From contig PBOL01000027.1 of assembly GCA_002725315.1 (NCBI GenBank), positions 14,027 to 55,547 of the forward strand: DNA of 41,521 bases, read 5' to 3'. The notes under the pieces are model-generated. The model ran no database searches. It saw only the letters and a program-made list of their open reading frames with translations, and was not told the DNA's origin. Position numbers and translations under genes: made by a program. Each line of letters opens with the position of its first letter. Position 1 is the first letter of the stretch. Below, piece by piece: positions 11,952-23,959 of the stretch. The stretch is from Methanobacteriota archaeon (GTDB taxonomy: Archaea; Thermoplasmatota; Poseidoniia; Poseidoniales; Thalassarchaeaceae).

Positions 11952-13643
11952 TCAGGGGAGCAAGGCTTCTGCCGCACCATGGGCGATGTCAACAAGGAAC
12001 TCGCTTCCGGGCCCTATTCCGAATGCCAGGGAGAGCGCGGAAAGGGCGATGATGAATGCCCTAAGTGGGGTGTTGCAGATTAGGTCCCCTTCTCCCTCCG
12101 GTTCCTCGAAGAACATGACCAAACCCATCCTGAGGTAGTAGAATAGAGATAGCGCGCTGTTCAGGACAACTGCGACTGCAAGCCAGAAGACGGGTTCGAC
12201 GCTGGTCGCCCAGGAGACGATGCTCGAGGCCCCTCCAGTACCTGCTGATACGGTAACGATCCCATTGATCATAAGAAGCTTCGAGAGGAATCCGGAGAAA
12301 GGTGGCACACCAGCCAGAGACAGCATGAACACGAACATCGACCCTGCCAGAATTGGGTCTCTTCGAGCCAGCCCGTTTAGCCCCTGCATTCTGTGGCTGC
12401 CTCCCTCAGTCTCCAGCGATGAGAGGACCAGGAAAGCGCCTAGCTTGAACACCACCAGGACCGAGAGGTGGAAGAGCACGGCCGTCACTATGAGGGCCTT
12501 TGCCTCGGGCCCGGCCAAGCCTGAGCCGATTGCTGCAACGGCGGCGAGCATGTATCCGGCATGGGCGACGCTGGAGTAGGCTAGGACCCTCTTCGGGTTG
12601 TCGCTAGACAGCGCTGCCAGATTTCCCCAAGTCATGGTTATGAGGGATATGGCGGCCATGGCAACAAACCAGAAGGACTCGCCCGATTCTGGCATCGAGA
12701 CGATTATCATGACCTTGAACAGGGCAACGAATCCCATCGCCTTGGAGGCGGTTGCTAGCATGCCAGCGACGATCGAAGATGCGCCGGAGTAGGCATCGGG
12801 TATTGCCAGGTGGAATGGAGCAGCCCCGACTTTGAACCCGAACGCGACAAGCATCATCCCCACGCCCGCAGTTGCCAGCGGGTCCAGGCCATCCATCGAC
12901 CTCCACGAGTCGGACAGACCCGAAACGCTGAGGTCGCCGTTCCAGAGGTAAAGGAGAGACATTCCGTATATCCCGATAGCGGAGGCAACCGAGCCCACCA
13001 CGAAGTACTTGGTCCCAGCCTCCCCCCCCTCTACTGACTCCTTGTGGAAACCAACCAGCACATAGGATGAGAGAGAAGCCAGCTCCATGCACACGAATAG
13101 CATGAACAAATGGGTTGACTTGGCCATCAGGGACATGCCTAGCCCAGTGGTCAGTAGGAGGATGTGGAAGTCCACCTGCCTCCTATTGTCGAAGAGTGCG
13201 TCCGTCTTGCGGGCACCTGACTCCTCGTCGTCGTCCTCTGTGGGAGCCTCCGCACCCGGGTCAGCGGGAATCCGGTGAGTGGCTGCGATGGCGCATAGGA
13301 AGAGAACCGAAATGAAGATGTTCGAGAGCAGAATGCTGAACTCGTCCACCACAAGGGCGTTTCCTACTTCTCCAGACCAGTCGCTCGGGCTCAGGAGCCC
13401 CATCTGTGCCGCGGCCAACGAAGCCAGTAGAGTTCCTATGGTGATCCAGTTCGGCAATCGAGGATCACGTGCTATGCCAAACCTCGATCCACCTAGGAGT
13501 ACTGGGACCCTGAAGGAGGTCAGGGGTATCCTGAACCTCGCATCTCCCAAGTTTGGAACGATGATCAGAGCCACCAGGCCTACCAGCATGATGATCTCAG
13601 GTAGGAGGAGCTCGGTCGGCATCCCTGCAAGCTCGGAGCTCAT
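11952..13643 (-). CDS. nuoN: Complex I subunit N (antiporter-like membrane subunit)
   Basis: A 563-residue protein with about 14 hydrophobic segments. LFMLFVCMELASLSSYVLVG carries the conserved Glu of the fifth antiporter helix, FGFKVGAAPFHLAIPDAYSG has the conserved Lys and the broken-helix region, and SSDNPKRVLAYSSVAHAGYM is the second broken-helix signature. It forms one of three antiporter-like proton channels in the membrane arm. An additional hydrophilic loop (about residues 123-150, PADPGAEAPTEDDDEESGARK) is longer than in bacterial NuoN. The start overlaps the nuoM stop by ATGA. It is the last gene of the nuo operon; aIF1A follows after 43 bases. Confidence 0.95.
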   Translation of the reverse strand: MSSELAGMPTELLLPEIIMLVGLVALIIVPNLGDARFRIPLTSFRVPVLLGGSRFGIARDPRLPNWITIGTLLASLAAAQMGLLSPSDWSGEVGNALVVDEFSILLSNIFISVLFLCAIAATHRIPADPGAEAPTEDDDEESGARKTDALFDNRRQVDFHILLLTTGLGMSLMAKSTHLFMLFVCMELASLSSYVLVGFHKESVEGGEAGTKYFVVGSVASAIGIYGMSLLYLWNGDLSVSGLSDSWRSMDGLDPLATAGVGMMLVAFGFKVGAAPFHLAIPDAYSGASSIVAGMLATASKAMGFVALFKVMIIVSMPESGESFWFVAMAAISLITMTWGNLAALSSDNPKRVLAYSSVAHAGYMLAAVAAIGSGLAGPEAKALIVTAVLFHLSVLVVFKLGAFLVLSSLETEGGSHRMQGLNGLARRDPILAGSMFVFMLSLAGVPPFSGFLSKLLMINGIVTVSAGTGGASSIVSWATSVEPVFWLAVAVVLNSALSLFYYLRMGLVMFFEEPEGEGDLICNTPLRAFIIALSALSLAFGIGPGSEFLVDIAHGAAEALLP

Positions 13644-15211
13644 GGCTTAACCCCCTCTGACTCCATTGCCGCAACAAGGACCGTGTCGATGAGCTCGCTG
13701 CTCCAGTACGACATCATGTCCCAGAAGAAGAATGGAAGGATTCCGAACAGAATTGTAAGACCGCCCAGAATCGCCATGCCTGCGTTCTCGTGCCATGTGA
13801 TGTCGCGGGGTTCTCCATGCAGGGTTTCGGGGAGGAGCCCATTGTGGGGGTCATTGGACTCGAATATGGTGCGCTGCATCGAGGTAAGGTAGTACACTGC
13901 TGTGATGATAAGTGTCAGAGCCGGCAGGAGTACCAGCCAGCCGAAAGTCATCCAGAATGCTATCAGGACTGCGACCTCTGCAACGAATCCGGCCATCATG
14001 GGTAGGCCAAGGCTGGCCATCCATCCCAGCATCATGTGGCCCGATAGCCATGGACTGTGGTGCGCTATTCCGCGCATTGATCCTATCTCCAGGGTGTGGT
14101 AGTGGTGCTTGAAGGCACCAGCGACGGCGAAAAGGAGTGGGCTGATTATCCCGTGAGCGAACATCATGAACAGCGCACCGGCTATTCCAAGGGGCTGCAT
14201 TGTCGCTATACCCAGGAAAATAAGACCCATGTGGGAAACCGAGGAGTAGGCGACCATCCTCTTCAGGTTCGTCTGCCCCATGCAGACCCATGCCCCATAG
14301 ACGAGGCTGGCCATACCCAGGGCAACCAGGAGCGGGGTGAAGACGACGGTAGAGCCGGGGAAGGCCGTCACGGCTACCCTGAGGAATCCGTATGCACCCA
14401 TCTTCAGCATTACCCCAGCAAGAATCATGGAGCCTGCGGTGGGTGCTTGGACGTGTGCGTCTGGAAGCCAGGTATGGACGGGTACGCTGGGCATCTTGGT
14501 CGCGAATCCGACTAGCAGGAGCATCCATACGATATGGCGAAGGCCCTCGCTCATCGTGCTCCCGCTGGCTAGGATTACTTCGAGGTCGAATGACCTATCT
14601 GATATCGAGGTCCCGGTGTTGAAGTACATCACCAGTATTCCGATTAGCATGATCACGCTTGCTGTGAATGTGTAGATGAAGAACTTCATCGCCGCGTAAC
14701 GGCGGTCGGCTCCCCCCCACATAAGAATCAGGAAGAACATCGGGATCAGGGTAAGCTCCCAGAAAACGTAGAAGACGAAGAGGTCCAGGGACACGAATAC
14801 GCCAATCATCGCTCCCTCCATAACCAGTAGGAGCGGATGGAACAGGTGCCCCCTCTTCGCGTCCCATTCCACGAGCATAGAAATCGGGACTACTAGGGAA
14901 GTGAGCCAAATCATCGGCAGGGAGAGGGCGTCCGCCCCCACATGCCACGAAACGCCGATGTATGGGATCAGGTCCACTGGTGTGTTCTCTAGCTCGTAGC
15001 TGCCGAAGCCGATAGCCATCCAGTCAAGGTCGCTCAGCGAGTGCGCTGCTGCCCATGTCGATATTGCAAAGAGGCCCAGGGAAACCCCCATGCACATGTT
15101 CCTGCTGAACGTGCGGACCTGGTCCCCTGCATGGGATGGGAGAATTTGTGGCAGTACCAGAAGGAGTGCTCCCACGGCGATCGGGGACAGTGCGAGAATG
15201 GTTAGGATCAT
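13640..15211 (-). CDS. nuoM: Complex I subunit M (antiporter-like membrane subunit)
   Basis: A 523-residue polytopic subunit. It contains LFVFYVFWELTLIPMFFLI (conserved Glu), GFATKMPSVPVHTWLPDAHVQAPTAGS (seen as VPVHTWLPDAHVQAPTAGS, the family signature), GQTNLKRMVAYSSVSHMG and FMMFAHGIISPLLFAVAG, all in the expected order. The ATG at 15211 overlaps the nuoL stop as ATGA, which decides the start; upstream codons would extend into nuoL. It contributes a proton or sodium path in the membrane arm of complex I. Confidence 0.96.
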   Translation of the reverse strand: MILTILALSPIAVGALLLVLPQILPSHAGDQVRTFSRNMCMGVSLGLFAISTWAAAHSLSDLDWMAIGFGSYELENTPVDLIPYIGVSWHVGADALSLPMIWLTSLVVPISMLVEWDAKRGHLFHPLLLVMEGAMIGVFVSLDLFVFYVFWELTLIPMFFLILMWGGADRRYAAMKFFIYTFTASVIMLIGILVMYFNTGTSISDRSFDLEVILASGSTMSEGLRHIVWMLLLVGFATKMPSVPVHTWLPDAHVQAPTAGSMILAGVMLKMGAYGFLRVAVTAFPGSTVVFTPLLVALGMASLVYGAWVCMGQTNLKRMVAYSSVSHMGLIFLGIATMQPLGIAGALFMMFAHGIISPLLFAVAGAFKHHYHTLEIGSMRGIAHHSPWLSGHMMLGWMASLGLPMMAGFVAEVAVLIAFWMTFGWLVLLPALTLIITAVYYLTSMQRTIFESNDPHNGLLPETLHGEPRDITWHENAGMAILGGLTILFGILPFFFWDMMSYWSSELIDTVLVAAMESEGVKP

Positions 15212-17508
15212 CCGCTCACCCCCCAAGCTAGGGCAAATATCGAAATCATCCCGACTGCCGTCATCATGATGTAGTCGCGTGCCCTACCCGTTGTCGCCCT
15301 CCTAATCTGGACTGAGCCTAGGACTGAGCTGGATTCGACCTGCTTTACAATTCCGTCAATGACGTTCCTGTCGAACCATGCGGCGAATGATGCTAGAGGG
15401 ATTGCGGTCATCCCTAGGGCCTTCTCGTAGTAGTGGTCGAAGTAAAGACGGTGCCTCAGTGCCTCGGATAGGCTTGAATCGGCCATCTCCGACATGTCCT
15501 GCGACCCGAAGCGGCCGGAAATCCAAACCAGCCAGGAAACCATGGGATTCGAGGATTGTCCTGCCCTGAGGGAGCCGCCGTGGACCCTAGCAGCAATAAT
15601 CGGCCCGACTACCAAGGAGAGGAAAATGGTCGTCCAACCCACGATGCGCAGATTTGGGTCCTCGGGCAGGAAAGCGTGCTCCAGCTCGTATATCACTTGG
15701 TCGAATACGGACTCTTTTTGAATGCCAATGTCGTCCTTGTAAGGCTTGGCCAGCCACTTAACTACCCCTAGGACTGAGAGGCCGAAGCCCCCGAGGGCGC
15801 TGATTACTGAGAGGATCACCAAGGGTTCCTTTATCCAGGGAGTTTCCTCGTGTACGTGGTCAACGACCTCGCTCTTGGGCTCACCAGCGAAAGTCATGAA
15901 CCACATCCTGGACATGTAGAAGCCCGTCATTCCAGCGGTAAGTAGTACCAGGACTGCTGGTCCGAGCATCAGGGGCTCGTAGTCCAGGGAAGCCTTCCAA
16001 GTCTTGGCCACAATCGCCTCCTTCGACCAGAAACCTCCGATGAGGGGGATTCCTATTATGGACATAGACCCGATCATCATTGCCGCTGAGGTGACTGGCA
16101 TCTTCGATGCCAGGCCGCCCATGTTTCGCATGTCCTGCGGATCAAAGTCGTGGTGACCGTGCTCAGAGCCGTGATGGAGGTGGTCATGGGCATGGTGCAC
16201 CTCGTGGATAACCGAGCCGCTGGCCATGAACAGCATACCCTTTGCCATTGCGTGGTTGAAGAGGTGGAACATCGAGCCCCCAAAGACTAGTGCGGCTGCA
16301 TCGGCGTTGCCGTGGTTGTAGAACCACAGGGAAACTCCTAGTCCGGTGAAGATGTACGCCAGTTGGCTCATGGTCGAGTAGGCCAGGACCTTCTTGATGT
16401 CATTCTGAACGAAGGCGATGGAGGCCGCCATGAAGGCGGTGATGCCTCCGATGTAAGCCACGATCAGGCCTAGGTCTTCCAGTCCCGCCACCCCGTGGTG
16501 GCCAACGTCCACGAATGGGACCATCCGGGCGACCAGGTAAAGACCCGCATTCACCATCGTGGCCGCGTGAATTAGTGCTGAGACGGGCGTGGGGCCCTCC
16601 ATTGCGTCAGGCAGCCAGACATGGAGAGGGAACTGGGCTGACTTCCCCACAGCGCCTACGAAGAGCATGAGCAGGGCCCAGAATAGCTTGTCGGTGTCGA
16701 CTGAACCATTCAGAGAAGGGTCCTCGAAAATCACGGAGAACTCTAGTGATCCGTATATGTCGTACAGTATCAGGAGACCGATCATGAGGAAAACATCGCC
16801 GACGCGAGTAGTCAGGAATGCCTTCTTGGCTGCATATGCAGCGCTCTCTTTCCAGAAGTAGAACCCTATTAGCAGGTAAGAGCACAGTCCCATGATCTCC
16901 CAGAAGATGAAAAGCCAGAGGAAGTTGTCAGCCAGGACCATCCCGAACATCCCCATGGCGAAGAGGACGAACTCGGCGTAGAACCGGTGGTTGCGGTTCT
17001 CGTTGATAGGATCCGTATTCATGTAACCGAGGCTGAACCAGCATATTAGGAAACAGAGGAATGTAGCGACGAACAGGAGCATCAGTGTGACTGAGTCGAC
17101 CCATACGCCGACGCCAATCACCCTCTCGGAGCTCATTGTGTAGTCGGACAGCAGCACATCGAAGGAAATCCAGTCCCCCCAAGTGGTGGCAACCCTCTCG
17201 CCCACTTCCTCGGAAATTTCCCTCGCACCCCTGAGGTAGTCAACAATGATCCAGAGTGCGGTCGTGAGGGAGACAAGCAGGGCTGATAGCGCGAGCGTCC
17301 CGCCTTCCTTCAGTCCCTCCTTCCAGGCTTTCTCTCCGTTTTTCAACTGGCCTGAAATTAGAATAATCGGGAATGCAACGAGTGGTGCCAGCACTATCAG
17401 GAACGCCGCATCCACAGAATCGAATTCTGCAATAGCCAAGGCAGGAACGACCAGCAGGGCAGGTATTAGTGGCATCAGTAGCCTGTACTCGTTTCCTGAC
17501 TTCGCCAT
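15208..17508 (-). CDS. nuoL: Complex I subunit L (antiporter-like membrane subunit with lateral helix), histidine-rich loop
   Basis: A 766-residue subunit, starting MAKSGNEYRLLMPLIPALLV. The signature FLWLFIFWEIMGLCSYLLIG, then GKSAQFPLHVWLPDAMEGPT and HAATMVNAGLYLVARM, then KKVLAYSTMSQLAYIF identify NuoL. The C-terminal part includes a long amphipathic stretch and a final membrane helix, as in the lateral piston helix of this subunit. Residues about 435-454 carry a His-rich insertion (ten His within HEVHHAHDHLHHGSEHGHH) in a loop where bacterial proteins go almost directly from SVIHA to QDMRKMGG. The start at 17508 lies seven bases after the nuoK stop; a start at 17541 would overlap nuoK. 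Confidence 0.96.
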   Translation of the reverse strand: MAKSGNEYRLLMPLIPALLVVPALAIAEFDSVDAAFLIVLAPLVAFPIILISGQLKNGEKAWKEGLKEGGTLALSALLVSLTTALWIIVDYLRGAREISEEVGERVATTWGDWISFDVLLSDYTMSSERVIGVGVWVDSVTLMLLFVATFLCFLICWFSLGYMNTDPINENRNHRFYAEFVLFAMGMFGMVLADNFLWLFIFWEIMGLCSYLLIGFYFWKESAAYAAKKAFLTTRVGDVFLMIGLLILYDIYGSLEFSVIFEDPSLNGSVDTDKLFWALLMLFVGAVGKSAQFPLHVWLPDAMEGPTPVSALIHAATMVNAGLYLVARMVPFVDVGHHGVAGLEDLGLIVAYIGGITAFMAASIAFVQNDIKKVLAYSTMSQLAYIFTGLGVSLWFYNHGNADAAALVFGGSMFHLFNHAMAKGMLFMASGSVIHEVHHAHDHLHHGSEHGHHDFDPQDMRNMGGLASKMPVTSAAMMIGSMSIIGIPLIGGFWSKEAIVAKTWKASLDYEPLMLGPAVLVLLTAGMTGFYMSRMWFMTFAGEPKSEVVDHVHEETPWIKEPLVILSVISALGGFGLSVLGVVKWLAKPYKDDIGIQKESVFDQVIYELEHAFLPEDPNLRIVGWTTIFLSLVVGPIIAARVHGGSLRAGQSSNPMVSWLVWISGRFGSQDMSEMADSSLSEALRHRLYFDHYYEKALGMTAIPLASFAAWFDRNVIDGIVKQVESSSVLGSVQIRRATTGRARDYIMMTAVGMISIFALAWGVSG

Positions 17509-17515
17509 CGTATCA

Positions 17516-17818
17516 CTAGTTCCTGAGCTTGCTCGCGGCATCCAGGGAAATTGTCTGCTGCGTTGAGTACATGGAGAGTAGGATAGCCAGGCCTATTGCA
17601 ACCTCGGCCGCGGCGATGGCGATGGCGATGGCGGTGAAAACCCAGCCGTTCACATCGCCGTAATGTGTGGCGGCTGCCACGAAGTTGAGGTTTGCAGCGT
17701 TGAGCATTAGCTCTATGCACATCAGAACCACTATCGCGTTCTTGTGGTAGAACGTCCCTAGAAGCCCGATTCCGAATAGGATTACGCCAAGAGCTGCAAT
17801 CCAGCTGGGATCAATCAT
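17516..17818 (-). CDS. nuoK: Complex I subunit K
   Basis: A 100-residue subunit with three membrane helices. It carries GTFYHKNAIVVLMCIELMLNAANL, in which the Glu of MCIELM (second helix) and the Glu of AIAAAEVAIGLAIL (third helix) are the conserved proton-path residues of NuoK. The ATG at 17818 overlaps the nuoJ stop as ATGA and sets the start; a longer frame upstream would add a basic sequence read out of nuoJ in another frame. Confidence 0.95.
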   Translation of the reverse strand: MIDPSWIAALGVILFGIGLLGTFYHKNAIVVLMCIELMLNAANLNFVAAATHYGDVNGWVFTAIAIAIAAAEVAIGLAILLSMYSTQQTISLDAASKLRN

Positions 17819-18441
17819 TCCTCCTCGCCCCCTTCCTGGTCTTCTTCGGTACTGGATGAAATGGTCCGCCTTACAGGCATCCCTACGCCGGGTGTGGCAG
17901 TTACTGCCTCCTGGCCCGTATCCCACACCAGATTGATCAGTCTCTCGTCACGAACCAGGTACGATGCCCCGATCATGGCCATAGCCAGAAGAGCCCCGAG
18001 GACTACTGTGGCGATTGTCCATTCGTTGAATAGGGAGTCGGCAAAATCCAGCGTCGTAGGTGCCCCCGCTACTCCAGAATCCCACATCGGGTGCTCCATG
18101 ACCTCCCTGAGCAAGGCAAGGGTCAGGCCGAAGAGGCCCATCCCAGTAACTGCGGAAATGAAGTTCAGAGTAGGCAGAGACTCAGTACCCTGTATCCTGC
18201 GGCGAGTCAGCATTACGCCGAACTGCACGACCAGCATGACAGATCCCAGGTAGACCAGTATCTGTATCGCTCCGAGCATCTCGGCGCTAGCCATTAGGAA
18301 CAATGCCGCGACGGCGAAGAATGTCAGCATCAGCCACAGCAGAGAGTGGGCGACCCTGCTTGCGAAGACGCAGCCTAGGGCGCCCGCGATTGCTGCTCCC
18401 GAGACTATAACGAAAACGATCATCTCGAAGTCAATAGCCAC
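17815..18441 (-). CDS. nuoJ: Complex I subunit J
   Basis: A 208-residue subunit with five hydrophobic segments. The third-helix signature EMLGAIQILVYLGSVMLVVQFGVML (seen as GAIQILVYLGSVMLVVQF) contains the conserved Tyr region of NuoJ that forms the pi-bulge near the E-channel. A hydrophilic tail of about 45 residues ends in a run of acidic residues (SSSTEEDQEGGEEE), which is longer than I expect for the family. It starts four bases after the nuoI stop and overlaps nuoK. Confidence 0.93.
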   Translation of the reverse strand: MAIDFEMIVFVIVSGAAIAGALGCVFASRVAHSLLWLMLTFFAVAALFLMASAEMLGAIQILVYLGSVMLVVQFGVMLTRRRIQGTESLPTLNFISAVTGMGLFGLTLALLREVMEHPMWDSGVAGAPTTLDFADSLFNEWTIATVVLGALLAMAMIGASYLVRDERLINLVWDTGQEAVTATPGVGMPVRRTISSSTEEDQEGGEEE

Positions 18442-18445
18442 TTGA

Positions 18446-19399
18446 TCAGGCCTCCGCCCTTGCAGCCTTTCTTGCTCTCTTTTCCTTCTCTTTCTGGGCC
18501 CTCTTTGCCAGTTCCATGTCGACCCTCTCCTGGTGGACAGCGGGCAAGACCCTGGTCCTACCTGCGTCCATCCACAGGTCTTCCCTTGAGAATCCGGACA
18601 TGCCGTCGTACTCGTTGGTCATGAAGAATGACTCGAAGGGGCAAGCCTCCATGCATAGTCCGCAGAACATGCACCTGCCAAGGTCGATGCGTCCGGAGAC
18701 TATGTCCTGCTCGGCGGGCTTCAGGGACCCCAGCGCGACGTCCTCTATGCCTGATCCGTCGGACCATCGGACTGTCGCTACCTCGCCCGTGATGTCGATC
18801 ACTTCGGCGAAGTCGTACTGCTGTGGAGCGTCATAGTGGTCGTTGACCAAGTCGAAACCGGAGGAGATCTCGTCGAAATCCTGCTTTGGCCTTGCAGCCA
18901 GTCCGCCGGACTCGACCTCGCTCCCGTACCCGTGCCACTGGTGATCCTCATCCACGGTGTCGAGGACGTTTACCCGTACCTCAGATGTCATGTGAAGGCA
19001 GTCGTTCGGGCAGGCCCTAACACATGCCTTGCATGCAGTGCAAGTCTCCCAAATGATGCCTATCCTGCCGTTGTAGTTTCCCGGAACGAAGAGCCATGGC
19101 TCCAGGTCCTCTAGCCTTTCGTATGGGTACATCACTGTAACAGGCCTCTCCACGAAAGGCATGATCTGACTGGTCTCCCTGTCGGCAGAGAACTTCTGGC
19201 CACTACTGGGGTGGTCCTTGCCTACCCTTCGTGCTGTCTCATCGTCGACCATGTCCGCTGCCTGACCGTGGTAGTCGTTCTTCAGGAAGCGTAGCTTTCC
19301 GAGGAAAGGCACTGTCCTGAGAGCCGTCTTCAGCGTAATCCACATCGGCCTTACTATGAGGTTTCGGAAGCTCGGTGTACCGTGCGGGTGGTAGCTCAT
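18446..19399 (-). CDS. nuoI: Complex I subunit I (two [4Fe-4S] clusters) with a large insertion between the cluster motifs
   Basis: A 317-residue ferredoxin-like subunit. The first cluster motif is CTACKACVRACP (Cys120, 123, 126, 130) and the second CMFCGLCMEACP (Cys243, 246, 249, 253), which carry electrons to cluster N2 in NuoB. In typical NuoI proteins about 35 residues lie between the last Cys of the first motif and the first Cys of the second; here there are 113. The extra stretch includes an acidic, aromatic part (about 150-195) and a compact beta-rich segment, DITGEVATVRWSDGSGIEDV (202-221). A Lys/Arg/Ala-rich helix closes the C-terminus. The N-terminus starts MSYHPHGTPSFRNLIV with the ATG at 19399 overlapping the nuoH stop as ATGA, which decides the start. 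Confidence 0.93.
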   Translation of the reverse strand: MSYHPHGTPSFRNLIVRPMWITLKTALRTVPFLGKLRFLKNDYHGQAADMVDDETARRVGKDHPSSGQKFSADRETSQIMPFVERPVTVMYPYERLEDLEPWLFVPGNYNGRIGIIWETCTACKACVRACPNDCLHMTSEVRVNVLDTVDEDHQWHGYGSEVESGGLAARPKQDFDEISSGFDLVNDHYDAPQQYDFAEVIDITGEVATVRWSDGSGIEDVALGSLKPAEQDIVSGRIDLGRCMFCGLCMEACPFESFFMTNEYDGMSGFSREDLWMDAGRTRVLPAVHQERVDMELAKRAQKEKEKRARKAARAEA

Positions 19400-20982
19400 G
19401 AGCGGGCCTCCATGTCTGCACGGCTGCCGGGGGAGGCCTTGACTACCGCATAGGTGCTGTACGGCCTGCGCATTGTCTCGATTGCCTCCTTGTCCTCGTC
19501 CATGCCTAGGATTGCCAGGCCCAGTACGCCTAGAAGTATCATCGAAATCGGGGCCAATATCCCCCATCCGTCGTCCCAAACCCATATCCTGAGGAAGATT
19601 GAGATTGCCAGGTTCACTATCGAGAGTGGCAGCAGCCACAGCCAGCCGAACTCAAGAATCTGGTCTGTTCGTACCCTGTGAAGGGATGCTCTGATCCAGA
19701 CGAAGACGGCGAATAGAAGCCATGCCTTTAGCAAGACCCAGGCGATTCCTGGGATTAGTGAGAATACGAACTCCAGAGCCCCTCCCACGATGGGTGCCGC
19801 CTCGAGTGATCCTTGGAACGGAGCCTCCCAACCACCCAAGAAGAACAGGGCGAAGAGAAGGCATGCTGCATAGGAGCGCATGTACTCGGCCATGAACATG
19901 AATCCCCACCTCAGGCCACCGTACTCGGTCCACCAGCCCTCCACGAGCTCCGCCTCTGCCTCCGGCATGTCGAACGGGATTCTCTCGACCTCGGCGATCA
20001 TCGTAATCAGGAAAAGTGCGGCCCCCAGAGGCATCATGAACAAGTTCCAGACGTTTGACTCGGAAATCTGGAAGTCTACAATCTCGATGATGTTGAACGA
20101 GCCGCTCATCACGCAGACGCCCAGTACGGTGATTAGGAGTGGGATTTCATAGGCAGTCAGCTGTGCTGCAGAGCGCATTCCACCGATCAGGGTGTACTTG
20201 TTGTTTGAGGCCCAGCCCGCGAAGAAGACCCCTAGTGGTGCAACACCGAAAATTGCCATCATGAAGATGGCCGATAGTTCCGGGCTTGAGATGTAGAAGT
20301 GTGGCCCAAAGGGCACGAATGCGAAGACTAGGACGGTGGTTGAGATGATGATCACGGGTGCTACCTCGTAGACCACCTTGTCTGCGTTCTTAGGAACGAT
20401 GTGCTCCTTTCCTGCGAACTTGGTGAAGTCCGCGAAGGCCTGGAAGAATCCTGGGAGAAGGAACCAGTAGCCGTGGTAGCCCCGGTTGTTGACTCGAGAG
20501 ACCGTCTCTAGCGAGTGGTCATTCCCCCAAATTGAGTTGAGGGTCCGGTTCAGGAATCCTATCGGTGCCCCCATTCCAAATGGAAGCTGGTTCCACCATT
20601 TTCCCGCCGTGACCCCGCTCTCACCTATCCAGAGGCTCCTGAGGGTCGTCGTTGCACCTAGCCTGTCCATCAGCCTTCCTATGAACTTGCGCTCGATGTA
20701 CGGTATGGGGAGGATCGTGAGCATCAATGTGGTGAAGACTATTGTGCAGATCATGGTTGCAGTGAAGAATGATTCCAAGGCCGGTTGGATTGCTGCGAAC
20801 TGCTCCCTGGGACTGAATATTGGGCCAATGTGTATGTCCTCGGGCCAGATTCCGGTCGGTAGGGAAATGGTAGCCTGGAGGTCAACTTCACCGGCGGGAA
20901 GCGCGTCGTGTACGTTGTCCATCGACCACCCGACACCGCTCTCAATCCATCCCCTGAGGTTTAACCAGTCGCTGCTAGGCAT
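19396..20982 (-). CDS. nuoH: Complex I subunit H
   Basis: A 528-residue membrane subunit that forms the quinone tunnel entrance with NuoB and NuoD. Visible signatures are YIERKFIGRLMDRLGATTT (first cytosolic loop), GVFFAGWASNNKYTLIGGMR, and AEVERIPFDMPEAEAELVEGWW (shown here as RIPFDMPEAEAELVEG), followed by EYGGLRWGFMFMAEY. At 528 residues it is longer than bacterial NuoH (about 325): the additions are an N-terminal stretch of about 70 residues before the first helix, an insert after GATTT (residues about 132-200) and extra C-terminal helices. The ATG at 20982 has AGGTGAGAT upstream and lies four bases after the nuoD stop. Confidence 0.95.
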   Translation of the reverse strand: MPSSDWLNLRGWIESGVGWSMDNVHDALPAGEVDLQATISLPTGIWPEDIHIGPIFSPREQFAAIQPALESFFTATMICTIVFTTLMLTILPIPYIERKFIGRLMDRLGATTTLRSLWIGESGVTAGKWWNQLPFGMGAPIGFLNRTLNSIWGNDHSLETVSRVNNRGYHGYWFLLPGFFQAFADFTKFAGKEHIVPKNADKVVYEVAPVIIISTTVLVFAFVPFGPHFYISSPELSAIFMMAIFGVAPLGVFFAGWASNNKYTLIGGMRSAAQLTAYEIPLLITVLGVCVMSGSFNIIEIVDFQISESNVWNLFMMPLGAALFLITMIAEVERIPFDMPEAEAELVEGWWTEYGGLRWGFMFMAEYMRSYAACLLFALFFLGGWEAPFQGSLEAAPIVGGALEFVFSLIPGIAWVLLKAWLLFAVFVWIRASLHRVRTDQILEFGWLWLLPLSIVNLAISIFLRIWVWDDGWGILAPISMILLGVLGLAILGMDEDKEAIETMRRPYSTYAVVKASPGSRADMEARS

Positions 20983-20986
20983 GATC

Positions 20987-22123
20987 TCACCTGTCCGTCT
21001 CCCCGATGCATGGATCGAATGAGCCCATGATGGCTGGAATGTCCGCAACCTTGTATCCAACCATGCACTTTGAGGCGTAAGGGATGGTGATGAACATCGG
21101 CGAACGGATTGAGACCCTGTAAGGCTGCTTCCCTCGACTTTCGCCTCCACCTGCAATGTAGAACATCGACTCGCCCCTGCTGTCTTCGAAGTGATGGAAT
21201 CCCGATGTTCCCTCTGGGGCCCTGCTTGGGGCTTTGGCCAGAATCGCCGGATCGCCCGGCTCGTGGTATGTGTCTGCCCCCCCTGGTATCTTGTCTAGAG
21301 CCTCCAACACCATGGTGGCACTTACTCTCATCTCCTCAACCCTGACCCTGTACCTGTCATAGCAGTCTGCTCCCTTGATCGAGGGCCTCTCGACCGGAGG
21401 CTCCCAGTCGAGTTCACTGTAGACAGAGTATGGGTGGGCTGTCCTGACGTCGTAGTTGACGCCTCCTGCACGTAGGTTCGGCCCAGTCACACCGTGGTTT
21501 ACCATCTCCTCAGGTTTTGAGTATCCAACTCCCTGTGTTCTGATCAGGAAGATGGTGCTCTCGTCGAATAGTGCCTCGTACTCCTGAATCCTACTGAGGA
21601 ATAGGCTGACCTTTGCTCGTGCGCGCTGGGCGAATCCATGAGGAAGGTCCCTCTTCACTCCGCCGACCCGCGGGAAGTTGTAGTGCATCCGTGAGCCACC
21701 GAGCTCCTGGAGCAGATCCATCATCATCTCCCTCTCCCTCAGGCACCAGACCATGATGGACAGGTTTCCGATGTCAGGACCATAAGCCCCCAGCCACATC
21801 AGGTGGGATGCGATCCTCTGGAGCTCGATGGCGATTAGTCGGATGTACTCGGCCCTCTCTGGCACCTCCACCTCAAGGAGGTCCTCGACCGCGTAGATGT
21901 AGGAATGTGACCATGTGTTTGCACTTGCGTAGCACAGCCTGTCGCAGTAGGTGGTGATCTGCGTGAAGTCCCTGGACTCGCAAATCTTTTCGACGCCTCT
22001 GTGGATATATCCAAGGTCGGGCTCCGTGTCGACGACGGTCTCGCCATCGACTTTCACCTTCAGAGTCCATAGGCCATGGGTCATGGGGTGCTGCGGCCCC
22101 ATCGAAATCCACATCTCAGCCAT
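20987..22123 (-). CDS. nuoD: Complex I subunit D (49-kDa, quinone-site subunit)
   Basis: A 378-residue subunit related to [NiFe] hydrogenase large subunits. MGPQHPMTHG at 8-17 includes the quinone-site His, LGYIHRGVEKI at 37-47 follows, and YCDRLCYASANTWSHSYIYA (59-78) is the next conserved block; GPNLRAGGVNYDVRTAHPYS lies further on. The C-terminus reads SFDPCIGETDR. Hydrogenases have two Cys in this place and complex I proteins usually none; here one Cys (372) is kept while the second position is Glu. The start at 22123 is preceded by GAGGAGAT. It is 13 bases after the nuoC stop. Confidence 0.95.
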   Translation of the reverse strand: MAEMWISMGPQHPMTHGLWTLKVKVDGETVVDTEPDLGYIHRGVEKICESRDFTQITTYCDRLCYASANTWSHSYIYAVEDLLEVEVPERAEYIRLIAIELQRIASHLMWLGAYGPDIGNLSIMVWCLREREMMMDLLQELGGSRMHYNFPRVGGVKRDLPHGFAQRARAKVSLFLSRIQEYEALFDESTIFLIRTQGVGYSKPEEMVNHGVTGPNLRAGGVNYDVRTAHPYSVYSELDWEPPVERPSIKGADCYDRYRVRVEEMRVSATMVLEALDKIPGGADTYHEPGDPAILAKAPSRAPEGTSGFHHFEDSRGESMFYIAGGGESRGKQPYRVSIRSPMFITIPYASKCMVGYKVADIPAIMGSFDPCIGETDR

Positions 22124-22136
22124 ATCTATCTCCTCA

Positions 22137-22796
22137 TCACTTTATCTTGCCAGCATCCGCTGGCTTGCGCAGGAACCCCTGGGCATCGTCGTACATCTCC
22201 TCGAAGTCATGGTATCGAAGCTTGTGCTGCTTCTGGAGGGGATGAAATCCGGCAGGGGTCTCGTGGGGTTGGAGTACCCTTCTCATACCCAAGTGTCCCT
22301 CGAAGTCTATCCCCACCAGGTCCCAGGTCTCCTTCTCGTTCCAGTCGGCTCCAACCCAAATGTCCTGGACAGTAGGGACCGATGGCTCCCTTGTTTCTGG
22401 TATTGGCACACTTACCTCTATCTCCAGGGGCACTTGTTTGCCGCTGACTCCGGTCGGGTCGACCACTATCGGCTCAACCATTCCATCTGACACTGGTGGG
22501 TCGGAGATTCCCATCCTCAGGAAGTGGTATACCACCTCCCAGTTCTTCTCGGGGCTTCCGTCTGGCCAGTGGATGCCGGTAATCATCGAGCAATAGTCCA
22601 CTTCATGCTCGTCGCGAAGGTTCACGGCCAGTTGGCGCCAACTGCCGGGTATGCACTCAACCGAAACTACGCTTCGCGGGCTTGTCCCGCTCTTTCTCTC
22701 TGACACCTCAGCAGAGACTCCATCGATCGTGGAGATTGCAGTGGCCATGCTCTCAGCGGCTGACCTCTGGACGGAAGTGGGTACGGTTTTTCCCAA
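22137..22796 (-). CDS. nuoC: Complex I subunit C (30-kDa)
   Basis: A 219-residue peripheral subunit. The signature near the C-terminus is NEKETWDLVGIDFEGHLGMRR (given as KETWDLVGIDFEGHLGMRR), close to the family pattern ERE..DM.GI.F.GHPDLRRIL, and the last third has VLQPHETPAGFHPLQK. In the middle, VNLRDEHEVDYCSMITGIHW matches the typical NuoC strand. There is no ATG at the gene junction. The TTG at 22796 starts two bases after the nuoB stop and keeps an N-terminal helix whole; an ATG at 22748 (MATAISTIDG) is the alternative. I favour TTG because all neighbouring junctions are tight. Confidence 0.92.
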   Translation of the reverse strand: MGKTVPTSVQRSAAESMATAISTIDGVSAEVSERKSGTSPRSVVSVECIPGSWRQLAVNLRDEHEVDYCSMITGIHWPDGSPEKNWEVVYHFLRMGISDPPVSDGMVEPIVVDPTGVSGKQVPLEIEVSVPIPETREPSVPTVQDIWVGADWNEKETWDLVGIDFEGHLGMRRVLQPHETPAGFHPLQKQHKLRYHDFEEMYDDAQGFLRKPADAGKIK

Positions 22797-22798
22797 TT

Positions 22799-23404
22799 TC
22801 AGTCCTCCTGGTCATCTCCGATGATGATCGGCTTGAGAGATTCTGGCGCTCCGTCGTTGGGAAGTGCACCAATCCTGATGATCTTCTGCCTTAGTTTGTC
22901 GAACCCATCTATCAGGGCCTCTGGTCGTGGTGGGCATCCTGGGATGTAGACATCTACTGGGATCACAGTGTCGACCCCCTCTAGGATGTTGTAAGACTGG
23001 AAGTAAGGGCCTCCGGAGATTGCGCACTCACCCATAGCTATGCACCACTTCGGCTCTGGCATCTGCTCCCACAGCCTAACAATTGGATCAGCGAACTTCT
23101 TGCTGATCGGGCCGTTGACCAAGAGGACGTCGCACTGCCTCGGGCTAGATCTGAAGAAGACGCCGAACCTCTCTGCGTCGAACCTGCTTGCTCCTGCAGC
23201 GGCCATTTCCAATGCGCAGCACTTTATCCCTAGGTGGAGGGGGAATAGTGACTTCCTCTGGCTCCAGTTGAACACGCGTCCCGCAAGGACTCCGATTACG
23301 TCCTTGATTCGGCTTGCCCTCATGGCCTCGTCCGTTACGTCGCCAACTGTATCCACCAGCATCCTGCTGTTGAAGACCGAGTAGTTCTGCCCATCGTCAG
23401 TCAT
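22799..23404 (-). CDS. nuoB: Complex I subunit B (carries cluster N2)
   Basis: A 201-residue subunit. All four N2 ligands are seen: the tandem Cys62-Cys63 in GIKCCALEMAAAG, Cys127 in MGECAISGGPYF and Cys157 in YIPGCPPRPEALIDG. RQCDVLLVNGPISKKFADPI (89-108) is the other conserved block. It passes electrons from NuoI to quinone at the NuoD interface. The ATG at 23404 lies nine bases after the nuoA stop. Confidence 0.97.
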   Translation of the reverse strand: MTDDGQNYSVFNSRMLVDTVGDVTDEAMRASRIKDVIGVLAGRVFNWSQRKSLFPLHLGIKCCALEMAAAGASRFDAERFGVFFRSSPRQCDVLLVNGPISKKFADPIVRLWEQMPEPKWCIAMGECAISGGPYFQSYNILEGVDTVIPVDVYIPGCPPRPEALIDGFDKLRQKIIRIGALPNDGAPESLKPIIIGDDQED

Positions 23405-23413
23405 GAAAAATCC

Positions 23414-23872
23414 TCAGATGTATATTCTCCCTCTCTTCCTGAATACGTGCCAGACTCCCAATGACATGAGAATCATGAAGACGGTCATTGTTAGGAGAGC
23501 AGATTTGATTGCTCCGTCGTCGAGCAAGGAGTCGTTCCCCTTCTCTATTGCCATTATCCCCCCGAATGCTAGGAACATGAACGCGATGTCGAAAACGAGG
23601 AATATTATCGCATACCAGTAGTATTGGAAGTGGAAGTTGATGTCTGCGTCACCCAGCGGGTCTGCACCGCACTCGTAGGTGCTATCCCTGCGGACGTATA
23701 GGCTGTGATCAACCTCGTAGCCCGGGAGTAGGATTGATCTGGTCTTGTTTACGTCAGAGCCCTTTGTGGTAGGCCTGAGGAACCTCGTAGCAAAGAAGCT
23801 GAAGACTGGAAAGCCGATTCCGACCAGCGTCATCACGGCCACTGGCAAGTACATCTCGGTCACAGTAGACAT
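23414..23872 (-). CDS. nuoA: Complex I subunit A
   Basis: A 152-residue subunit with three membrane helices. STYECGADPLGDADINFHFQ contains the ECG motif of the mobile loop that faces the quinone site, and YYWYAIIFLVFDIAFMFLA is the conserved second helix with the family Asp. I take the ATG at 23872 (MSTVTEMYLPVAV) because GAGGGTGAT (23876-23884) precedes it at proper spacing; an upstream ATG at 23929 would add 19 residues. It is the first gene of an 11-gene operon, and an inverted repeat at 23883-23901 abuts its Shine-Dalgarno. Confidence 0.93.
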   Translation of the reverse strand: MSTVTEMYLPVAVMTLVGIGFPVFSFFATRFLRPTTKGSDVNKTRSILLPGYEVDHSLYVRRDSTYECGADPLGDADINFHFQYYWYAIIFLVFDIAFMFLAFGGIMAIEKGNDSLLDDGAIKSALLTMTVFMILMSLGVWHVFRKRGRIYI

Positions 23873-23882
23873 GGCATCACCC

Positions 23883-23901
23883 TCGGTCCCGTAGGGACCG
23901 A
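23883..23901. promoter_or_regulatory. Inverted repeat in the leader of the nuo operon
   Basis: Perfect 8-bp arms TCGGTCCC and GGGACCGA with a 3-base spacer. On the minus strand it lies between a TATA-like CTTATG (23927-23932) and the nuoA start, and its last bases overlap the Shine-Dalgarno GAGGGTGAT. It could be an operator near the transcription start or a message hairpin affecting translation of nuoA. Confidence 0.55.
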
Positions 23902-23959
23902 TGAGTACCGCCACAAAAATTCCGGACATAAGCGTATCCGAGTGGGAACCTTGGCAATG

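Follow-up and report, generated by a model that had tools for sequence, protein, structure and literature searches.

The window analysed here, a stretch of 41,521 nucleotides from a Candidatus Thalassarchaeum (Marine Group II, Poseidoniales), carries on its minus strand a cluster of complex I genes in which nuoI encodes two iron-sulfur motifs separated by an unusually long linker. The following features define the locus:

11952..23929, minus strand: nuoABCDHIJKLMN cluster, 11 subunits, without nuoEFG
18446..19399, minus strand: nuoI (317 amino acids plus stop), open reading frame with two intact [4Fe-4S] motifs
19007..19042, minus strand: first NuoI cluster motif, CTACKACVRACP (residues 120-131)
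18638..18673, minus strand: second NuoI cluster motif, CMFCGLCMEACP (residues 243-254)
18704..18964, minus strand: insert found in Poseidoniales only, lying between the two motifs (residues 146-232; net charge -17)

All eight cluster cysteines could be located (residues 120, 123, 126 and 130, then 243, 246, 249 and 253). Both motifs are intact, as the original prediction had stated, and a recount from the cysteine positions returns the 113 residues that it had given between Cys130 and Cys243. The assignment of the protein to NuoI stands on these two complete [4Fe-4S] motifs, on a NuoI profile match and on the location inside the nuo cluster. Its top NCBIfam match, TIGR01971 (E 1.2e-19), is split by the insert into two stretches and hence reaches only 70 bits, under the cut-off of 113. 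With the NuoI and NdhI families (TIGR01971, TIGR00403), Poseidoniales NuoI shares the core fold, the two CxxCxxCxxxC motifs and the place between nuoH and nuoJ; it departs from them by a linker of 112 residues, against about 29, and by an additional insert of about 50 residues in its N-terminal part.

The linker counts 27-43 residues in insert-free Thermoplasmatota relatives and, from the alignment, about 29 in cyanobacterial NdhI, in line with the value of about 35 previously quoted for well-studied NuoI. The excess over relatives amounts to 69-85 residues, varying with the relative chosen. The two motif starts are 123 residues apart here and 119-125 in other Poseidoniales. Elsewhere in the Thermoplasmatota this spacing is 38-54 overall: most Thermoplasmatales-type NuoI have 38 or 44, the sister Marine Group III-like family has 53, and the remaining relatives have 40-54.

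Conservation and taxonomic range of the insert

Searching with an insert-only profile, we found the insert in 62 of 64 Poseidoniales genomes, in both families, in single copy and always within nuoI. The two other genomes also have no nuoI match, and nuoI is therefore missing from those assemblies. The same search found the insert in none of the 179 other Thermoplasmatota genomes, and no stand-alone copy of the domain in the 243 genomes. Weak short matches to the profile occur in other genes, three in other Thermoplasmatota (E 0.02-0.08) and one in a Poseidoniales genome. The profile matched no PDB sequence, and our literature search found no paper on this insert or on any archaeal NdhO.

Across 49 diverse members, the insert is 83-89 residues long and its net charge ranges from -14 to -22. 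A charge as low as -17 is found in 1.4% of the 87-residue windows drawn from the other soluble-like proteins of this genome. The acidic aromatic stretch noticed at the outset corresponds to residues 146-193 (net -10). By codon comparison, pN/pS is 0.18-0.36 in the insert versus 0.01-0.06 in the NuoI core, hence a looser conservation than that of the core, yet with clear selection. An assembly or frame error as the source of the insert was ruled out by its retention in 62 of the 64 Poseidoniales genomes together with this purifying selection.

By aligning each subunit with ten outgroup operons, we found further stretches that are present in Poseidoniales only, of which the two in NuoI had been absent from the original prediction:

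19157..19312, minus strand: second NuoI insert, near the N-terminus (residues 30-81), about 50 residues
19088..19108, minus strand: 7-residue NuoI insert DLEPWLF (residues 98-104)
20452..20550, minus strand: NuoH insert of 33 residues in a cytoplasmic loop (203-235, numbered on the 586-aa frame); among aligned loci, Poseidoniales only
22431..22508, minus strand: NuoC insert (residues 97-122), Poseidoniales only among aligned loci
22140..22205, minus strand: NuoC C-terminal tail, 22 residues (198-219)
22811..22852, minus strand: NuoB C-terminal tail (residues 185-198)
23702..23764, minus strand: NuoA loop insert, 21 residues (56-76)

Close operon relatives, those of the Thermoplasmatales and of the Marine Group III-like family, also encode an 11-subunit complex I without NuoEFG. 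However, their NuoI has a normal to moderately long linker without the insert, and Poseidoniales NuoI is without the second 2x[4Fe-4S] domain that these relatives carry at the C-terminus. This domain, which brings the total to four motifs, is found in most outgroups, including Thermoplasmatales and Marine Group III-like archaea (loci L119, L120, L121, L132, L133, L134, L135, L136 and L162) and others. Related lineages have thus altered NuoI differently: Poseidoniales by an inserted barrel (see below), Thermoplasmatales and the Marine Group III-like family by an additional 2x[4Fe-4S] domain. In a NuoB+NuoD tree, Poseidoniales are monophyletic with 100% support, and the root is weakly supported. 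Since four-motif NuoI occurs both in the sister family and in the Thermoplasmatales, the simplest history under this weakly supported root is that the Poseidoniales ancestor lost the C-terminal domain and gained the insert.

Two other variations were observed inside the Poseidoniaceae. Some of their NuoI proteins are longer by about 120 aa at the C-terminus (L118:1498-2847, L128, L154:1628-2989); this extension includes a helix-hairpin-helix-like sequence, IKGVGPFIEEKLNALGIYTFSQI, has no Pfam match and may resemble a C-terminal domain of some alphaproteobacterial NuoE. In Poseidoniaceae NuoI (L116, L124, L126, L127 and more), the second motif is followed by Gly, Asn or Ser instead of proline (CP), the cysteines being unchanged.

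Predicted fold of the insert and resemblance to NdhO

The original prediction had placed a beta-rich segment around residues 202-221 and proposed a possible small SH3-like domain. We modelled NuoI twice with AlphaFold. In the first model, built with Poseidoniales sequences only, the insert was folded and the iron-sulfur core poorly so; in the second, to which Thermoplasmatota NuoI had been added, the core came out in the expected ferredoxin-like order of elements. In this second model, the mean pLDDT is 85-95 in most ten-residue blocks of residues 160-230, one block being at 69. The predicted barrel strands (167-171, 195-204, 207-212 and 218-222) cover the beta-rich segment and are flanked by hairpin strands (135-143 and 227-239). 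With good confidence, the insert is predicted to be a small five-stranded SH3-like barrel attached at the tip of the inter-motif hairpin. The single-chain model, with a pTM of 0.49, does not fix how the barrel is oriented towards the clusters.

18710..18913, minus strand: predicted SH3-like barrel, NdhO-like (residues about 163-230; AlphaFold, Foldseek and profile comparison)
18722..18850, minus strand: segment aligned with NdhO (NuoI 184-226 to NdhO 23-66; profile-profile comparison, 12/43 identical)

In Foldseek searches with the second model, the core matched NuoI/NdhI and further polyferredoxin chains, and the top SH3-like match was NdhO of T. elongatus (6nbq_O, 21% identity, E 0.018). With the first model, the same NdhO chain ranked second among all PDB matches (E 0.032), alongside KOW, Tudor, SH3 and designed SH3 barrels; neither E-value for NdhO is significant by itself. 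The profile-profile comparison agreed, with P=3e-5 and a score of about 30, for an NdhO profile of three sequences only, read from PDB alignments, NdhO having been picked after a database search. None of 400 column-shuffled NdhO alignments reaches this score (maximum 18.4 versus about 30), and none of 843 background segments scores as high as T. elongatus or spinach NdhO. Set against ten other SH3-like sequences, several of them controls, the three NdhO sequences took ranks 1-3 of the thirteen. Kinship with NdhS, PsaE, KOW, Tudor, Myosin_N or classical SH3 domains was rejected, all of them being weaker than NdhO in profile comparison.

The insert and NdhO (PF11910) have in common an SH3-like barrel of similar length, an EVxDIxGxxAxVRW pattern and an aligned histidine. 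Both belong to a complex I without NuoEFG, NdhO at its ferredoxin site and the insert probably so. Three residues, His188, Gly205 and Trp212, do not vary over the 49 aligned rows; T. elongatus NdhO has the same residue at the first two and Phe at the third. On the other hand, NdhO is a separate subunit of 70 aa, whereas the insert is a covalent part of NuoI; the insert is acidic, has no equivalent of the basic Lys4/Lys5 of NdhO and falls below the Pfam cut-off. Indeed, the Pfam NdhO model gave no match above cut-off in the 49 inserts, nor in any of the 243 genomes, and no further NdhO sequences came from plasmids or viral contigs. NdhS, another subunit of NDH-1, is also SH3-like and is seated in a groove of NdhI, but profile comparison shows no resemblance between it and the insert (P 0.07-0.4).

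Barrels of the SH3 type are very common, and the Pfam scan of the 49 inserts gave weak SH3-like matches to Myosin_N (in 12/49 members), Agenet and UBE2O SH3-B, besides unrelated ones. The insert could then be an SH3-like insertion peculiar to this lineage, unrelated to NdhO and taking no part in electron entry, used for example in assembly. We regard this explanation as unlikely: NdhO stands above all other SH3-like domains tested, Myosin_N included, and the invariant His188 and Gly205 match NdhO. From the sequence comparisons, we rather lean, without great assurance, towards a kinship between the insert and NdhO. The stronger claim is more tentative: the insert may possibly be a true NdhO homologue outside oxygenic phototrophs, fused into a marine archaeal NuoI, where it would permanently gate the entry of electrons driven by ferredoxin.

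Electron donor and role of the barrel

As the original prediction had noted, NuoEFG are missing: no NuoE, NuoF or NuoG of complex I was found, and this is not the 14-subunit NADH-oxidising enzyme. No NuoF exceeded the cut-off in 146 Poseidoniales or 145 Thermoplasmatota genomes, this genome included. NuoE was found in 8 of 79 genomes, always fused to a NuoF-like protein. NuoF-like genes of about 630 aa exist in 10 of the 146 Poseidoniales (G206, G112, G203, G164, G074, G185, G247, G248, G258 and G275) and are NuoE-NuoF fusions in all eight checked; a NuoG-like protein (about 910 aa) adjoins the fusion in each of the eight genomes in which NuoG, too, was looked for. In G206, this pair lies about 22 kb from nuoI on one contig. 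The pair is probably an NAD-dependent formate dehydrogenase, judging from its resemblance to such enzymes. A hidden NADH module was rejected accordingly; the genomes with this pair carry the insert too. Many archaea were already known to be without NuoEFG (PMC3750248, PMC11237513). The Marine Group II complexes have been called canonical NADH dehydrogenases (PMC6336850); in contrast, the present data do not support an NADH module in Marine Group II complex I.

What, then, feeds this complex? The FrhB domain is found in none of 50 genomes of the class, and an F420 donor of the Fpo/Fqo type was rejected for this lack of an FrhB/FpoF-type subunit. All 26 high-quality genomes searched encode a 2-oxoacid:ferredoxin oxidoreductase (POR/KOR), and proteins with a [2Fe-2S] ferredoxin domain are encoded in 40 of 40 genomes, so that both a ferredoxin-reducing enzyme and ferredoxins are available. 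Since NuoEFG and FrhB are absent and the oxidoreductase is universal, ferredoxin is the likely donor of Poseidoniales complex I. The [2Fe-2S] ferredoxin of this genome is acidic (net -11), and a near-neutral 2x[4Fe-4S] protein (net -2) is encoded beside a Rieske/cytochrome b cluster.

At locus L190:5417-10380 (G000, contig C23), a gene for a 2x[4Fe-4S] ferredoxin-like protein, probably the "RnfB" of Marine Group II papers, adjoins a cytochrome b gene. The neighbours encode a protein of 941 aa that has [4Fe-4S] and CCG (heterodisulfide-reductase-like) domains, as well as a Rieske-looking product without Pfam match. This gene group is possibly a quinone-linked redox complex.

Cyanobacterial NDH-1 is also without NuoEFG, and cryo-EM has placed ferredoxin above cluster N6a, bound to NdhH and to the long NdhI hairpin (PMC6992706, PMC7021789). 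NdhO lies at this ferredoxin site, where it contacts NdhJ, NdhK and NdhN (PMC7021789), and NdhS is about 25 A from ferredoxin (PMC6992706, PMC7021789). Deletion of ndhO raises ferredoxin-driven activity, and NdhO is therefore described as a likely negative regulator. In our alignment, Lys86, Lys89 and Lys91 of the ferredoxin-contacting hairpin of NdhI fall between Cys73 and Cys103, i.e., in the very linker that carries the insert in Poseidoniales. By analogy with NDH-1, the insert would thus sit at or beside the expected electron entry.

The original prediction had proposed that the insert, in a complex deprived of NuoEFG, might form a docking surface for an electron donor. The absence of NuoEFG and the location of the insert on the equivalent of the ferredoxin-contacting loop both agree with this idea. 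However, the basic residues expected on an NdhI-type hairpin are replaced at its tip by an insert of strongly negative charge in every member, the [2Fe-2S] ferredoxin being acidic as well, and this acidity makes the insert unlikely to be a simple receptor for such a ferredoxin. The barrel sequence is also moderately variable outside a few residues. The insert might dock a donor of another kind, perhaps a basic or near-neutral carrier such as the 2x[4Fe-4S] protein encoded beside the Rieske/cytochrome b cluster, and docking understood in this way appears doubtful to us. No insert-bearing genome searched has an NADH module of complex I; yet both NuoEFG and the insert are missing from Marine Group III-like and Thermoplasmatales genomes. 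The absence of NuoEFG is therefore no predictor of the insert, which correlates with lineage and not with NuoEFG loss as such. Given the acidity, the negative regulation attributed to NdhO and this lack of dependence, a docking surface is one of several possible roles.

Alternatively, the barrel could be a passive shield or brace over the N6a end left exposed without the NADH module, which would reduce the leak of electrons to oxygen and make the arm more stable. Aerobic respiration is reported for Marine Group II (PMC6336850), and the Poseidoniales-only additions in NuoB, NuoC and NuoH surround the same arm. But Thermoplasmatales, for which aerobic respiration is also reported (PMC3750248), and Marine Group III-like relatives manage without both NuoEFG and the insert, and we hold such a passive role to be the least probable of the explanations considered.

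The explanation that we prefer, and that we believe about as readily as we doubt it, is an NdhO-like SH3 barrel in the donor-site hairpin of NuoI, shaping or gating ferredoxin entry at N6a. The last common ancestor of Poseidoniales would have acquired the barrel as an insertion at the tip of the inter-motif hairpin. The 11-subunit complex I without NADH module would probably be fed directly at cluster N6a by reduced ferredoxin, supplied for example by 2-oxoacid:ferredoxin oxidoreductase. The barrel probably stands at the apex of the Q module beside N6a, where Poseidoniales-specific additions in NuoC and NuoB (the homologues of NdhJ and NdhK in NDH-1, respectively) may brace it, and would shape or gate donor access in the way proposed for NdhO in the photosynthetic enzyme.

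These observations bear on the electron donor of complex I in archaea that lack NuoEFG; in Poseidoniales, the insert would mark the donor site. They concern Marine Group II archaea, which are abundant in the surface ocean and uncultured. The insert offers a testable structural prediction and may tie an archaeal enzyme to NdhO, a small subunit with a regulatory function whose descriptions to date come from photosynthetic complex I. If the kinship with NdhO is true, archaeal and photosynthetic complex I would share an accessory domain, through ancient inheritance or gene transfer.
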